DNA of 64,000 nt from Psychrobacillus sp. FSL H8-0483 (GTDB taxonomy: Bacteria; Bacillota; Bacilli; Bacillales_A; Planococcaceae). The notes beneath the pieces were generated by a model. It did no database searches. It was not told where the DNA came from and saw nothing but the letters and a program-made list of their open reading frames with translations. The number at the start of each line of letters is the position of its first letter. Position 1 is the first letter of the stretch. The stretch covers positions 603,501 through 667,500 of the forward strand of contig NZ_CP152052.1 of the NCBI RefSeq assembly GCF_038637725.1, given 5' to 3'. The position numbers were made by a program, and so were the translations under genes. Below, one piece after another: positions 1 to 6,041 of the stretch.

Positions 1-322
1 GATAGAGACCAGTTGTTCCTAAAGGTCTTTCCACTGTGTCTTCAACTTCTTCTAACACTAGCAAAGGGGTATGTCCATCAGCAGTTAGCGTAACTTTACT
101 TTGCTCTTCCGTTAAAATATCAAAGCCGATTACTTGTTGATAAAATGCAGAGATTTTATCAAGATCAGAAACAATCAGGTGTACTCCTTCCAATCTAGAA
201 GGAGAGTCAGTGTTATATGTTTCATAGGTTGTAACATTCTTTTTAAACAGGAAAAAAAGTGAGATGAGCACCACCACTAAGACGATACCAACGATAATAA
301 TTCGTTTGTTTTTCATTTGCAT
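1..322 (-). CDS. Membrane-anchored VOC/glyoxalase-fold protein (partial, C-terminus beyond window)
   Basis: Reading the minus strand from 322 gives an open frame running off the left edge. It begins with a basic stretch and one hydrophobic segment (about residues 8-26), then a soluble part with the glyoxalase/bleomycin-resistance (VOC) pattern: LEGVHLIVSDLDKISAFYQQ, then VIGFDILTE and a segment ending TPLLVLEE. VOC proteins are often dioxygenases, isomerases or thiol-dependent detoxification enzymes; the substrate cannot be told. An in-frame ATG at 316 has better spacing from the AGGAG and is an alternative start. A BlaI-type palindrome sits just upstream, suggesting co-regulation with the divergent repressor gene. 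Confidence 0.75.
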   Translation of the reverse strand, partial: MQMKNKRIIIVGIVLVVVLISLFFLFKKNVTTYETYNTDSPSRLEGVHLIVSDLDKISAFYQQVIGFDILTEEQSKVTLTADGHTPLLVLEEVEDTVERPLGTTGLY

Positions 323-344
323 AAATCTCCTTTTTCATATAAAC

Positions 345-360
345 TACACTACGTAGTGTA
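345..360. promoter_or_regulatory. Candidate BlaI-family operator 1, perfect 16-bp palindrome
   Basis: TACACTACGTAGTGTA is a perfect palindrome about 30 bp upstream of the minus-strand glyoxalase-fold gene, where its -10 region should lie (a TTGCAT-like -35 is about 16 bp away on the minus strand). BlaI/MecI repressors bind ACTACA/TGTAGT dyads. Related dyads at 450-474 and 1769-1783 make this a likely operator of the repressor encoded at 486. Confidence 0.7.
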
Positions 361-433
361 ACAGGAGATGCAAGAAAATACAGCTATAAGATTTTAAAAA
401 ATGTTTATTTCATCATTTTTCGATTAACAAATC

Positions 434-474
434 TTGACTGGAAAAGTTACTCACACTACAATGAGTAATGTGAG
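434..474 (+). promoter_or_regulatory. Autoregulated promoter of the blaI-like gene with operator 2
   Basis: A sigma-A type promoter is visible: TTGACT at 434-439, 17-bp spacer, TACAAT at 457-462. An inverted repeat CTCACACTAC / GTAATGTGAG (arms 450-459 and 465-474, one mismatch) covers the -10 box, so a bound dimer would block RNA polymerase. This is the layout expected for an autoregulated BlaI-type repressor. A GAGGTGATT ribosome binding site follows. Confidence 0.75.
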
Positions 475-485
475 GTGATTAAACC

Positions 486-899
486 ATGTTGATTCGAAAA
501 TTTAAAATAAACGAAAGTGGATTGAATCGCTTTTTCGGACCACTTGAAGCAAAGATTATGGATATCTTATGGAACGATGTGGAAATGACCATAAAAGATG
601 TTCAGCAAGTCCTTGACCTGGAAAAAGTGACGAATTTTAACACAGTTATGACCGTCATGAACCGATTAGTCGAAAAGGGAATTCTTCAAAAGAGGGTAGA
701 AGGTAGATCCTCCCTTTATAAACCAGTTCAATCTAGAGCTGAGTTTTTGAGTGCGCAGTCAAAAGAAATGACAAATGAATTGATGGATGAATTCGGAAAC
801 GTTGTTGTCAGCCATATGTTAGATGCGCTTGAAGACGTGGATGATGATCTTGTCGCAAAACTCGAGCAAAAAATAAAAGAATTGAAAAAGGATATGTAG
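486..899 (+). CDS. BlaI/MecI-family transcriptional repressor
   Basis: 137 aa, the usual size of BlaI/MecI/CopY-type regulators. The N-terminal two thirds is the family winged helix (GPLEAKIMDILW, then a TVMTVMNRLVEKGIL recognition-helix region); the C-terminal third is a charged dimerisation helix ending KLEQKIKELKKDM. Such repressors bind palindromic operators as dimers and are inactivated by cleavage by a partner M56 protease, here the next gene 3 bp downstream. No beta-lactamase or PBP2a gene is nearby. The flanking operators point to the glyoxalase-fold gene, itself and the bdbD-bdbC-resA block as targets (inference). Confidence 0.9.
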   Translation: MLIRKFKINESGLNRFFGPLEAKIMDILWNDVEMTIKDVQQVLDLEKVTNFNTVMTVMNRLVEKGILQKRVEGRSSLYKPVQSRAEFLSAQSKEMTNELMDEFGNVVVSHMLDALEDVDDDLVAKLEQKIKELKKDM

Positions 900-902
900 C
901 AT

Positions 903-1751
903 ATGACAAAACGTCAATCATCGCTAATGTTTATTGTTTCTCTTGTCATTTCAGGAACAATTTTTCTACAGATGGCTTTATACGTCATCTCCATGTTGGC
1001 AGGCTGGAACGTCAAATTTAACATCGTTGAAGTTTGTCATAGTACGCTAAAAGCATTCGGTTTGTCATCCCTAGAATATGTTCTAGATGCGCTAGTCATC
1101 TATACGCTACTATTTTCACTATGGAAACTGGTATCTCAATTGATTTATGCTACACGAATGAAAAAACGATTTCAGCAATATAAAGAGAAAGTGCTGACAA
1201 TCGAAATGAATGAGACATATGAGAGTAAAAATGAGGATTTTTTAGTCATTTCCTATCCTGGAACATTTGCGATAACTATGGGCTTTATTCATCCTAAAAT
1301 CATCGTAACAACTGGTTTGATAAGCCTATTAACGGAAGATGAATTAAATGCGGTCATAGCGCACGAGAACTATCATAAAGTAAATCGGGATCCATTAAAA
1401 ATCTTTTTGTTATCACTTTTTTCTTCTACGTTGGGCTATATTCCCATTCTGAAGTGGTTTAACCAAAAATATAGAATCATTCAGGAAGTGTTAGCAGACG
1501 AATTTGCAATTGAAAAACAAGAGACATCTGTGAATTTAGGCAGTGCACTTTTGAAAATGTTAAAAGTAGGAAAGTTAGAAAAAATGCCTTTTGCTTATGC
1601 CTCATTTGCGGATACATCCGTAAATTATCGGATTGAATATATGTTAAACCCATTGACGGATGTTCAGTGGAAGATTCCATTGAAAGACGCATTTTTGTCG
1701 TTCGCAATTTTTATCTTAATTTGTATCTTTTTTATTTACGCGCTAGCGTAA
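903..1751 (+). CDS. M56-family membrane metallopeptidase, BlaR1-like without a sensor domain
   Basis: 282 aa with hydrophobic segments near residues 8-30 and 52-78 and one at the C-terminus (DAFLSFAIFILICIFFIYALA region). The zinc site HENYH (HExxH) is at about residues 154-158, and a downstream EVLADEFA supplies the usual third-ligand region. BlaR1/MecR1 are about 600 aa and carry an extracellular penicillin-binding domain; here the protein stops after the last membrane span. It is presumably the protease that cleaves the BlaI-like repressor, but its trigger cannot be a beta-lactam bound by a PBP-like domain. Given the next genes, an envelope redox or stress cue is possible (inference). Confidence 0.85.
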   Translation: MTKRQSSLMFIVSLVISGTIFLQMALYVISMLAGWNVKFNIVEVCHSTLKAFGLSSLEYVLDALVIYTLLFSLWKLVSQLIYATRMKKRFQQYKEKVLTIEMNETYESKNEDFLVISYPGTFAITMGFIHPKIIVTTGLISLLTEDELNAVIAHENYHKVNRDPLKIFLLSLFSSTLGYIPILKWFNQKYRIIQEVLADEFAIEKQETSVNLGSALLKMLKVGKLEKMPFAYASFADTSVNYRIEYMLNPLTDVQWKIPLKDAFLSFAIFILICIFFIYALA

Positions 1752-1768
1752 ATTTTTTATTCCATTAC

Positions 1769-1783
1769 ACTACATAATGTAGT
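1769..1783. promoter_or_regulatory. Candidate BlaI-family operator 3, upstream of bdbD
   Basis: ACTACATAATGTAGT is a perfect 15-bp dyad around one central base, embedded in TTACACTACATAATGTAGTT, and shares ACACTAC with the other two operators. It lies between the protease gene and bdbD, so the thiol-disulfide genes may belong to the same regulon. No clear -35/-10 pair could be assigned. Confidence 0.6.
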
Positions 1784-1966: not shown

Positions 1967-2611
1967 TTGTCTAAGAAAATATTTTGGATAATCGGTATTG
2001 TGGCTGTAGCCCTTATTGCAATTGTAATGCTAAGCGATGCTAAGGAAGAGTCAGTAGTGATAGATTACGAAGGTCAACCATTTTTAGGGGAAGAATCAGC
2101 ACCTGTTGAAATAGTTGAATTTGGGGATTACAAATGTCCTCACTGTGGAGATTTCAACAACAGTCTTTTTCCTATCATCAACCAGGAATTAGTTGAAACG
2201 GGGAAAGCGAAGTTTTACTTTATGAACTATTCATTTATTGCTCCCGATTCAACGACTTCTGCACAATTTGCGGAAACAGTTTATAAGGAACTAGGGAATG
2301 AAAAGTTCTGGGAATTCCATCACTTATTGTTTGCAAACCAAAATTCGGAATCCGGACAAGCGAATTTAATGACAGAGGAATTTTTAAAAGCAGTATTATC
2401 AGAGGTTGCAACTCCTGAAGAAACAGAAAAAGTTATGCTAGCTTTCGGTGAAGGTAAAGGGAAGGAAGCTTGGGATAAAGATATGAGTACAGCAAATAAT
2501 CTTGGTGTCAACTCAACGCCAACGATCTATATTGGTGGAAAAGAATTCACTGGAAGTACAATGGATGATATGATAAAAATGGTGGAAGAGGCGGATACGA
2601 GTGGTAAATAA
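1967..2611 (+). CDS. bdbD: BdbD-type (DsbA-like) membrane-anchored thiol-disulfide oxidoreductase
   Basis: A TTG start at 1967 is chosen because AGGAGTG lies 6-7 bp upstream; an ATG at 1946 lacks such a site. The 214-aa product has an N-terminal signal anchor (about residues 4-23), then a thioredoxin/DsbA fold with FGDYKCPHCGDF: catalytic CPHC at about residues 57-60 and a cis-proline loop NSTPT near residue 183. In B. subtilis BdbD introduces disulfides into exported proteins and is reoxidised by BdbC, encoded next with an 11-bp overlap. Overall similarity to BdbD, including the VEFGDYKCP core, is strong. Confidence 0.9.
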   Translation: MSKKIFWIIGIVAVALIAIVMLSDAKEESVVIDYEGQPFLGEESAPVEIVEFGDYKCPHCGDFNNSLFPIINQELVETGKAKFYFMNYSFIAPDSTTSAQFAETVYKELGNEKFWEFHHLLFANQNSESGQANLMTEEFLKAVLSEVATPEETEKVMLAFGEGKGKEAWDKDMSTANNLGVNSTPTIYIGGKEFTGSTMDDMIKMVEEADTSGK

Positions 2612-3005
2612 ACCCCTTCTCCTTGCGTGGATAGCGTCTATTATAGCAATGGTGGGAAGTTTGTTTTTTAGCGAGCGAATGGGTTTTATTCCATGTACTC
2701 TTTGTTGGTATCAACGAATTTTGATGTATCCACTTGTTATGTTCCTAGGTATTGCTTTTTATCGAAATGATCGAACTATTTATAAATACATTTTACCGAT
2801 GTCTGTGCTCGGTATGGGTATTTCAAGTTATCATTATGCGCTGCAAAAGATTCCTTCCATGCATGAATTCAGTTCATGTACGAGTGGGGTTCCATGCTCA
2901 GGCCAATATATTAACTGGTTAGGTTTTGTAACAATCCCATTTTTAGCGCTCATCGCATTTACGTTCATTACAGTAATGATGCTGATACTTTGGAAACGCA
3001 AATAA
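2601..3005 (+). CDS. bdbC: BdbC/DsbB-type disulfide bond formation membrane protein
   Basis: 134 aa with four hydrophobic segments and the two DsbB-family cysteine pairs: CTLC at about residues 32-35 (in PCTLCWYQR) and CTSGVPC at about residues 93-99. The protein reoxidises BdbD and passes electrons to quinone in the membrane. GTG start; the coding region overlaps the end of bdbD by 11 bp, implying translational coupling. Length matches B. subtilis BdbC (about 138 aa). Confidence 0.92.
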   Translation: MVNKPLLLAWIASIIAMVGSLFFSERMGFIPCTLCWYQRILMYPLVMFLGIAFYRNDRTIYKYILPMSVLGMGISSYHYALQKIPSMHEFSSCTSGVPCSGQYINWLGFVTIPFLALIAFTFITVMMLILWKRK

Positions 3006-3054: not shown

Positions 3055-3591
3055 GTGGATAATAAAAAGAAAAAACGCTTTTACATTCGACTGATCATTT
3101 TGGCAATAATGGTTGGAGCAATCGTCTTCACTATTTATTCCAATGTAACGAAAGAGAGAACAGCGATATTGCAGGTAGGAGATGATGCTCCTGACTTTGC
3201 ACTTGTTGATATGAATGGAGAAAAGCATCAATTATCGGAATATAAAGGACAAGGTGTCTTTTTGAACTTTTGGGGAACTTGGTGTAAACCATGTGAAAGA
3301 GAATTCCCTCTAATGGACAAACAATATCAAGAATATAAAGACCAAGGTCTTCAAATATTAGCTGTAAACGTAGGTGAATCTGATTTTGTTGTGCAAAAAT
3401 TTATCGATCGAAAAGGCTTAACTTTTCCAGTTTTAATTGATGACAATAAAAGTGTAATGGAGACTTACAATATCAATCCTTTACCAACAACTTTACTTAT
3501 TAACCCTGAAGGTAAAATAGAGAAAATAATTACAGGGGAAATGAATGAAGAAATGATTAAGAATTATATGGAGCAAATTATGCCAATTTAA
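3055..3591 (+). CDS. resA: ResA-type membrane-anchored thiol-disulfide oxidoreductase
   Basis: 178 aa with one N-terminal membrane anchor (about residues 12-29) and an extracytoplasmic thioredoxin-like domain of the TlpA/ResA group: NFWGTWCKPCEREFP with CKPC at about residues 77-80, and the cis-proline loop NPLPTT. ResA reduces apocytochrome c CxxCH cysteines before haem attachment. The usual partners resB and resC are not adjacent, so this copy may instead be a reductive counterpart of BdbCD. GTG start at 3055 with AAAGGA upstream; the gap after bdbC is 49 bp. Confidence 0.85.
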   Translation: MDNKKKKRFYIRLIILAIMVGAIVFTIYSNVTKERTAILQVGDDAPDFALVDMNGEKHQLSEYKGQGVFLNFWGTWCKPCEREFPLMDKQYQEYKDQGLQILAVNVGESDFVVQKFIDRKGLTFPVLIDDNKSVMETYNINPLPTTLLINPEGKIEKIITGEMNEEMIKNYMEQIMPI

Positions 3592-4535: not shown

Positions 4536-5018
4536 ATGGTGAAAAAGCAAAAAACCAATGCGGTTCGATTGTTGGAACAGCAAAAGATACCATTTGAATT
4601 AATTGAATATGAGCTCACAGGTGATCAAGTAGACGGGGTAACCGTAGCGAAAAAAATAGGCTACTCTGTAACTGTTGTGTATAAAACACTACTAATCACG
4701 GCAGGTTCCAATAAATATTGTGTATGCATTATCCCAGTAAGTAACGAATTAAATTTAAAGCACGTTGCAAAAGTAATCGGAGAGAAAAAGGTAGAATTAC
4801 TTCCCCTGAAGGATTTACTAACAACTACTGGCTATATTCGTGGAGGATGCTCTCCTATTGGGATGAAAAAGTTATTTCCTACAATAGTGGATGATAGCGC
4901 GCAAAATCTTGATTTTATTATTGTGAGTGGAGGAAGAATAGGACTTCAGGTAAAGCTTTCTTTATCAGATTTACTTATGATGACTAAGGGGCAAGTTGCT
5001 ACTATTAGTAAAATTTAA
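4536..5018 (+). CDS. ybaK: YbaK/EbsC-family Cys-tRNA(Pro) deacylase
   Basis: 160 aa, the full length of the YbaK family (related to the ProRS editing domain), which hydrolyses cysteine mischarged onto tRNA(Pro). Diagnostic stretches are [20 protein letters not shown] at the N-terminus, VYKTLLIT (catalytic lysine region), and [14 protein letters not shown], the family glycine-rich substrate loop. Cytoplasmic quality control of translation. An AGGAG overlaps the end of the preceding gene. Confidence 0.9.
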
Positions 5019-5072
5019 AAATGGTTAGCATTTTAGCTCATACAGGCTATAATGAACTTAATAGAATTTATT

Positions 5073-5106
5073 CCATTCCAACATTGTTGCGAATGGATTT
5101 TTTTCG
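5073..5106 (+). terminator. Intrinsic terminator after ybaK
   Basis: Short hairpin CCATTC / GAATGG (arms 5073-5078 and 5091-5096) followed by ATTTTTTTC. Confidence 0.7.
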
Positions 5107-5129
5107 GTTATAGAAAGTAGGATAAAAAA

Positions 5130-5777
5130 ATGAAACAATTAGTTTGGCGCTGGGTATTTTTTGTAGTTGGTATTATGTCTATGTCTTTAGGTATTTCCAT
5201 GACGATAATAGGGCAACGTTTTGGTGTAGGACCGTGGGATGTTTTACATGTGGGCCTCTTTCGTCATTTAGGTTTATCCATTGGTACTTGGGCTATTTTA
5301 ACAGGTTTAGTTATTGTCCTCGTAACCATAATCGGAACTAAGAAATTGCCACAGCTGGGTACTTGGTTGAATATACTTTTCCTTGGATCTTTTATTGATA
5401 TGTTTAACTGGCTATTGCCGGATGTAACGAGCTTCTTAGGTCAATTGATTTGTTTCATATTTGGAATTGTTGTCACGGCAATTGGGGTTGGTGTCTATGT
5501 ATCACCGAATGTTGGAGCGGGACCTCGTGATTCTCTTATGCTATTAATCATGAAGAAAAAGGGTTGGAGTATTAAAAAAGTTCGTACTGGAATAGAGGTT
5601 ATTGCAGGCCTTGCTGGTTGGGCACTTGGAGGACCAGTAGGATTAGGTACAGTACTTATTGCGGTTTTATTAGGACAATTAGTTCATTACACTTTGCCCA
5701 TGGCTCAAAAGTTATTATTTAAAATCTGTGGGTACTCATTACCATTTACAAATAAGAGCGCTGAAAATCAGAAATGA
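5130..5777 (+). CDS. YczE-type integral membrane protein
   Basis: 215 aa and very hydrophobic, with about five or six membrane spans. It carries the two family signatures FGVGPWDVLHVG and NVGAGPRDSLML, which form an internal repeat (G-x-GPxD). B. subtilis YczE has the same length and is reported to affect lipopeptide production; the molecular function of the family is unknown. Transport or regulation of an exported process is a guess. It is monocistronic, ending in its own terminator. Confidence 0.82.
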   Translation: MKQLVWRWVFFVVGIMSMSLGISMTIIGQRFGVGPWDVLHVGLFRHLGLSIGTWAILTGLVIVLVTIIGTKKLPQLGTWLNILFLGSFIDMFNWLLPDVTSFLGQLICFIFGIVVTAIGVGVYVSPNVGAGPRDSLMLLIMKKKGWSIKKVRTGIEVIAGLAGWALGGPVGLGTVLIAVLLGQLVHYTLPMAQKLLFKICGYSLPFTNKSAENQK

Positions 5778-5795
5778 TTTTTAGGGCTTTTTTTC
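5757..5795 (+). terminator. Intrinsic terminator overlapping the yczE-like stop codon
   Basis: AGCGCTGAAAATCA / TGATTTTTAGGGCT hairpin with a GAAA loop, then seven T. The left arm lies inside the last codons of the yczE-like gene. Confidence 0.8.
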
Positions 5796-5805
5796 ATGCT
5801 CAAAT

Positions 5806-6041
5806 AAATTAGGTTGTTGTTTTTTAGGAAAATATATTTTATGACGAAAATCCGTGAGACTCCTGCGGAAAAACGGGCTGCCAAGACCCCATAGCGGGGC
5901 TATTGGAACAAATCCTAAGTTCGCCACATCCATGTGGCAAGGGATTCGTGACCAACAATCTGTTGGCCCGAAGAGGCTTGGCAGTTCTTCCCTGGATAGC
6001 GAGCGGATTTTCGGCAGATAACAGCATAATCGTTTAACAGA
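5806..6041. repeat. GC-rich mosaic intergenic element 1 (fills the 333-bp gap 5778-6110)
   Basis: The termini are AAATTAGGTTGTTG on the left and GGCAGATAACAGC plus CGTTTAACAGA on the right. The core contains GTGAGACTCCTGCGGAAAAA and CCAAGACCCCATAGCGGGGC, a module repeated near 12560, 12700, 8650, 26650 and 35200, plus ACCAACAATCTGTTGGCCC, which is shared with the start-proximal elements. The core is much richer in GC than its flanks. No transposase. A 48-bp version with the same two ends but no core is at 48870-48917. Confidence 0.8.

Follow-up and report, generated by a model that had tools for sequence, protein, structure and literature searches.

The window analyzed here is a 64,000-nucleotide stretch of DNA (genome positions 603501-667500) from a chromosome of 4.14 Mb assembled as a single contig. 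It opens on a locus with the gene order: a divergent VOC/glyoxalase-fold gene, BlaI, M56 protease, BdbD, BdbC, and ResA. In window coordinates, the genes and the residue central to our proposal are as follows.

1..322, minus strand: 5' part of the divergent VOC/glyoxalase-fold gene (315 aa), which extends past the window start (genome C1:602875-603822)
486..899, plus strand: blaI, BlaI-family repressor of 137 aa (PF03965)
903..1751, plus strand: M56 protease gene, BlaR1-like membrane protein of 282 aa without the penicillin sensor
1035..1037, plus strand: Cys45 codon, in the loop equivalent to BlaR1 EL1; proposed sensor residue
1967..2611, plus strand: bdbD, DsbA-like with CPHC, membrane-anchored thiol oxidase; start inferred from relatives
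2601..3005, plus strand: bdbC, DsbB-like with CTLC and CTSGVPC motifs
3055..3591, plus strand: resA-like gene, thiol-disulfide oxidoreductase with CKPC (PRK03147, 259 bits)

Profile matches bear out the identities that an earlier note on this DNA had assigned to bdbD, bdbC, and resA. One gene start is corrected: the bdbD start common to relatives is the TTG at 1967. The VOC product matches PF00903 at 67.6 bits and carries a membrane anchor at its N-terminus; several relatives have the same gene at this place, together with an operator. The repressor belongs to Pfam Penicillinase_R (PF03965, 93.2 bits against a curated cut-off of 22.6), and its best NCBIfam match, CopY_TcrY (TIGR02698), falls below the cut-off (51.4 vs 121.95 bits). 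It lacks any cysteine; any thiol signal would therefore have to arrive via the protease or another protein. No other gene in the genome is a clear member of either the BlaI or the M56 family. Three weak matches were dismissed by eye: for BlaI, a replication-initiator-like protein and a MarR-type protein encoded next to a nitroreductase-like gene; for M56, an M48-like protease with ankyrin-like repeats.

The earlier note placed three related dyads around these genes, and all three are present at its positions: 345-360, with perfect arms TACACTAC/GTAGTGTA; 450-474, with arms that are 90% complementary; and 1769-1783, with arms ACTACAT/ATGTAGT. It also had the second dyad overlapping the -10 element of blaI, as it does. 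The register conserved across species is ACTACA-N3-TGTAGT. In this register, the predicted BlaI sites and the transcription signals near them are as follows.

343..357, no strand: operator 1, ACTACA CTA CGTAGT, 1 mismatch; in the VOC promoter region, overlapping palindrome 345-360
434..462, plus strand: blaI promoter, TTGACT-N17-TACAAT, with its -10 inside operator 2
450..474, no strand: operator 2, core 455-469 ACTACA ATG AGTAAT, 2 mismatches
1734..1758, plus strand: terminator-like hairpin and T run, ATTTACGC-N4-GCGTAAAT, overlapping the M56 stop codon
1769..1783, no strand: operator 3, ACTACA TAA TGTAGT, 0 mismatches; before bdbD

The number of motif matches is not significant: at up to 2 mismatches, the 64 kb hold 3 where chance predicts 2.2. 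All three fall within the two intergenic gaps of the locus (Poisson p about 3e-7). Because the motif count alone is weak, we take the operators as real on the strength of their conservation across species. In a sample of 80 named loci, nearly all from Bacillales, an operator lies at blaI in 80/80, as a dyad on the -10 element where BlaI is predicted to bind, and in the gap between M56 and target in 62/80; the background is 12 sites in 676 kb of DNA flanking these loci. Relatives with a divergent VOC gene have an extra site at its promoter, and one locus (L107) likewise has one before a divergent DoxX gene. Of the 13 genomes in the genus that have the pair, 10 contain exact sites; the six without M56 contain none. 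A scan of the chromosome itself at up to 1 mismatch (about 150 sites would be expected by chance at 2) finds five sites outside the locus, all of them intragenic or in the lysS terminator, so the predicted regulon in this genome, comprising VOC, blaI-M56, and bdbDC(-resA), looks local. To the operator-linked unit drawn in the earlier note, the VOC gene belongs only in a subset of relatives, and resA often, not always.

The blaI promoter is itself conserved, as the pattern TTGAC-N-(16-18)-TACAAT is found in 75/80 relatives. The hairpin at the end of the M56 gene also occurs in most bdb-linked relatives; since it covers the stop codon, the protein end and the RNA structure occupy the same bases. 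At operator 3, no consensus promoter was found, and the hexamers there are unconvincing. Transcription of bdbDC could come either from read-through with a roadblock or from a weak promoter. Most relatives have the operator a few tens of bases ahead of bdbD; in this strain operator 3 and bdbD are separated by an inserted dispersed repeat (1790-1940), which has 26 matches across the chromosome.

The M56 protein scores 42.9 bits with PF05569 (cut-off 31). As the earlier note had read from the sequence, it contains HENYH (residues 154-158), and at 282 aa it ends without a penicillin-binding domain. Further motifs are E195xxAD199, SF at 234-235, and R243; in 71 sequences H154, E155, H158, E195, D199, and R243 are invariant, and F235 is nearly so. 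An AlphaFold model of the protein (pLDDT 88.9) finds its best fold match in solved BlaR1 (VIA-align Z 14.4), and BlaR1 is also the top solved structure by sequence profile. Model residues 1-242 align with BlaR1 32-290, which means that the protein lacks the first helix and the whole sensor domain. The sensor_BlaR1 model gives 30.5 bits against a cut-off of 1200, and the protein stops after its last helix. The missing sensor domain sets the pair outside the BlaR1/MecR1 beta-lactam systems.

The inferred topology has the N-terminus inside and residues about 34-56 outside, equivalent to EL1 of BlaR1, a loop whose displacement has been proposed as the signaling event for penicillin (PMC9834060). 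BlaR1 cleaves itself at Ser283-Phe284 and has a conserved Arg294 (PMC9834060). Compared by order and spacing, with no residue-level alignment, Ser234-Phe235...Arg243 resembles this arrangement. In the repressor, the position aligned with the classical Asn-Phe cleavage site of BlaI reads His-Met in this clade and Gln-Phe in two distant pairs. H110-M111 is a candidate cleavage site, and since Met replaces the classical P1' Phe there, cleavage of this BlaI is not guaranteed.

In the host family, 20 genomes carry this M56, and 19 of them have blaI, M56, bdbD, and bdbC in one uninterrupted row; the twentieth (L061) has aa3 quinol oxidase genes behind the pair, and there too an operator is present. 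The linked bdbC, called at 75% identity or more (observed 75-99%), is present in 19/20 family genomes with the M56 and 0/71 without it (Fisher p 1e-18, uncorrected for relatedness); the 71 have only a more distant bdbC. The linked genes are therefore an accessory second pair for disulfide formation, one that moves together with its own regulator. Across the wider Bacilli, the pair precedes DoxX, DoxX together with BdbD/BdbC, or CcdA with a ResA-like thioredoxin. Of 66 dereplicated loci in which the pair has a co-directional neighbor, the gene directly after the pair is DsbA-like in 27, DoxX in 19, AhpC-TSA/ResA in 3, and CcdA-like in 2.

Independence was checked on an M56 tree, built by a quick method and with several long branches. 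Its well-supported branches require a minimum of 3 changes each for Bdb and DoxX and of 2 for CcdA-ResA, which argues that the link to these targets is recurrent rather than a single inherited accident. The Fisher tests used here ignore relatedness, and the association statistics are inflated by it. The link of the regulator to a disulfide/DoxX regulon is nonetheless well supported by sequence comparison. As far as conserved operators and linked genes go, the earlier idea that BlaR1-like proteolysis may be wired to disulfide formation is strongly upheld.

About a quarter of relatives have other neighbors (YceI, DUF2231, qox, or none). Paenibacillus loci (L145 5894-6622, L155 5909-6580, L144 5822-6430, L146 6659-7366) have YceI, DUF2231, or DoxX with a pirin gene further on, possibly reflecting a wider set of quinone- or isoprenoid-linked targets. 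In L096 5001-5846 (Sporosarcina sp. D27) the M56 gene has an in-frame stop, and in L120 at about 4965-5806 (S. aquimarina) it is frameshifted; both retain blaI, the operator, and bdbDC, and either decay or assembly error could account for the disruptions. A locus labeled Arthrobacter beigongshangensis (L095) falls with Viridibacillus/Sporosarcina on the M56 tree, through contamination, a mislabeled assembly, or transfer.

Absent from the earlier note is a cysteine in the outward-facing loop; for the redox idea, this residue is a concrete candidate for the sensor. Cys45 is invariant in an alignment of 14 diverse relatives; among 75 dereplicated M56 proteins, two of them from disrupted genes read by eye, 69 have it. 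None of the six proteins without it (L197, L199-L202, L212) has a thiol/DoxX target. Such a target accompanies 51/69 proteins with Cys45 and 0/6 without (Fisher p 7e-4, uncorrected for relatedness). From its place in the EL1-equivalent loop, Cys45 may serve as a replacement sensor; a conserved cysteine can also be a structural residue, a metal site, or a lipid site.

We propose that the BlaI repressor and the M56 protease probably form a self-regulating switch, which governs an inducible module for thiol redox outside the cytoplasm. From the gene association, conserved operators, fold, catalytic residues, and Cys45, all of them computed, we infer repression, cleavage, the signal, and its sensing by Cys45. 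BlaI would bind ACTACA-N3-TGTAGT in three places, namely its own promoter and the regions ahead of bdbD-bdbC-resA and of the divergent VOC gene, and would keep these genes low, a repression suggested by the conserved operators. Modification of Cys45 at the outer membrane face, whether by oxidation, disulfide formation, or S-alkylation by quinones/electrophiles, would shift the M56 protease into its active state. The active protease would then cut BlaI, with H110-M111 as the candidate site. Loss of BlaI would release ResA, the VOC enzyme, and a dedicated second BdbD/BdbC pair, and these would bring envelope thiols and quinones back into balance. Other Bacilli may use this switch to drive DoxX, CcdA-ResA, or DoxX and Bdb both. 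A sensor on the outside would suit the targets, all of which work in the membrane or beyond it. More tentatively, we consider it possible that sensorless M56 proteins form a widespread class in which one extracytoplasmic loop cysteine at the EL1 position senses thiol/quinone status and repressor proteolysis controls disulfide formation, DoxX, and electrophile detoxification.

Other signals are conceivable. A copper switch, in which the sensor loop binds copper and BdbDC, DoxX, and VOC limit copper-driven thiol damage, draws on the place of BlaI in the CopY family (the subthreshold CopY_TcrY match), on the match of DoxX to the HvfX copper-peptide maturation model (also below cut-off), on multicopper oxidases that adjoin some distant pairs, and on the capacity of a cysteine to bind Cu(I). 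We consider it unlikely: no copper ATPase, CopZ, or metallochaperone is seen in operons of the close clade, the residue after Cys45 is His mainly in the Bdb-linked clade and variable elsewhere, and the distant pair that adjoins a P-type ATPase (L201) is one that lost Cys45. Similarly improbable, in our judgment, is a sensor of respiration in which the redox state of the quinone pool is read within the membrane rather than by thiol chemistry at Cys45. DsbB-type BdbC passes electrons to quinones, and the quinol oxidase genes in L061 lie behind the pair and an operator. In M. tuberculosis, the promoters bound by BlaI include those of cytochrome bd and ATP synthase (PMC5473688). However, a respiratory oxidase is the target in one relative only, and the near-invariance of Cys45 is explained more simply by thiol chemistry.

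The least likely rival, and an improbable one, is a cell-wall or beta-lactam response as in M. tuberculosis, with the disulfide genes as targets for envelope repair. By sequence, the closest solved BlaI-like structure is 2g9w, which we take to be M. tuberculosis BlaI, and a transpeptidase-domain gene comes next after the pair in one distant relative (L204). In M. tuberculosis, too, the pair is sensorless (PMC5473688). The earlier note saw no beta-lactamase nearby, which is correct for the locus; yet the genome has an unlinked class A beta-lactamase-like gene (G000:C1:4044905-4045570), by eye without a signal peptide, besides seven transpeptidase-domain matches. Upstream of the beta-lactamase-like gene there is no operator even at up to 3 mismatches, and genome-wide at up to 1 mismatch none lies at any PBP promoter. 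An unlinked beta-lactamase or PBP gene as the only regulated target, the case named in the earlier note as speaking against a redox role, thus has no site in the scan at up to 1 mismatch. Thiol/DoxX genes, not wall genes, are the targets across Bacilli. Beta-lactam sensing via a separate sensor protein was likewise put aside, since the locus has no linked PBP-like gene.

The preferred reading, a thiol-redox switch, would matter beyond this locus. It is as switches for penicillin resistance that BlaI/M56 pairs have been named and studied, though many lack a penicillin sensor. A conserved target set and one testable residue now allow us to ask directly what sensorless BlaR proteins sense. If the proposal is true, the pair is a transmembrane regulator of Gram-positive disulfide-bond formation that acts via repressor proteolysis, and regulated repressor proteolysis becomes a transmembrane readout of envelope redox state. 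In a limited set of open-access papers we found no description of the disulfide/DoxX regulon or of the loop cysteine.

Known systems share parts of this arrangement. Like BlaR1-BlaI and MecR1-MecI of S. aureus, the pair joins a winged-helix repressor and an M56 protease in one operon, with an operator (here a predicted one) over the repressor's own promoter; with S. aureus BlaR1 the protease shares its fold (the Z of 14.4), an HExxH...E...D active site, and Ser-Phe before a conserved Arg. Unlike BlaR1/MecR1, it has no penicillin-binding sensor and no first helix, and it has a cysteine in the EL1-equivalent loop; the targets are disulfide/DoxX genes, not beta-lactamase or PBP2a, and the repressor differs from S. 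aureus BlaI by Met for Phe at the aligned cleavage position. The M. tuberculosis BlaI-BlaR pair (Rv1846c-Rv1845c), the nearest case that has been studied, is similar in having a partner BlaI, an M56 protein without an extracellular sensor, and targets linked to respiration and redox (PMC5473688). In contrast to the present pair, M. tuberculosis BlaI represses blaC, and the excerpted account describes no link to a bdbDC/DoxX operon and states that the signal of the sensorless BlaR is unknown (PMC5473688). CopY/TcrY belong to the same repressor family and use similar short dyad operators; unlike them, the BlaI described here falls below the NCBIfam cut-off, has no cysteine metal site, and is paired with a protease.

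The catDE operon offers a further comparison; CatD is a DoxX-type protein. In B. subtilis, YodB and CatR control catDE, which includes a catechol dioxygenase, and respond to catechols, quinones, and diamide (PMC6212828, PMC6943732). As in our proposal, thiol chemistry lifts their repression; unlike it, these MarR/DUF24 proteins are cytoplasmic one-component thiol repressors with neither protease nor extracytoplasmic sensor, whereas the BlaI at this locus is a cysteine-free Penicillinase_R protein. For M. tuberculosis, joint action of a DoxX-domain protein with SodA and a thiol oxidoreductase has been proposed (PMC10943396). By analogy, these cases suggest that the same kind of stress may be read here by a membrane protease.
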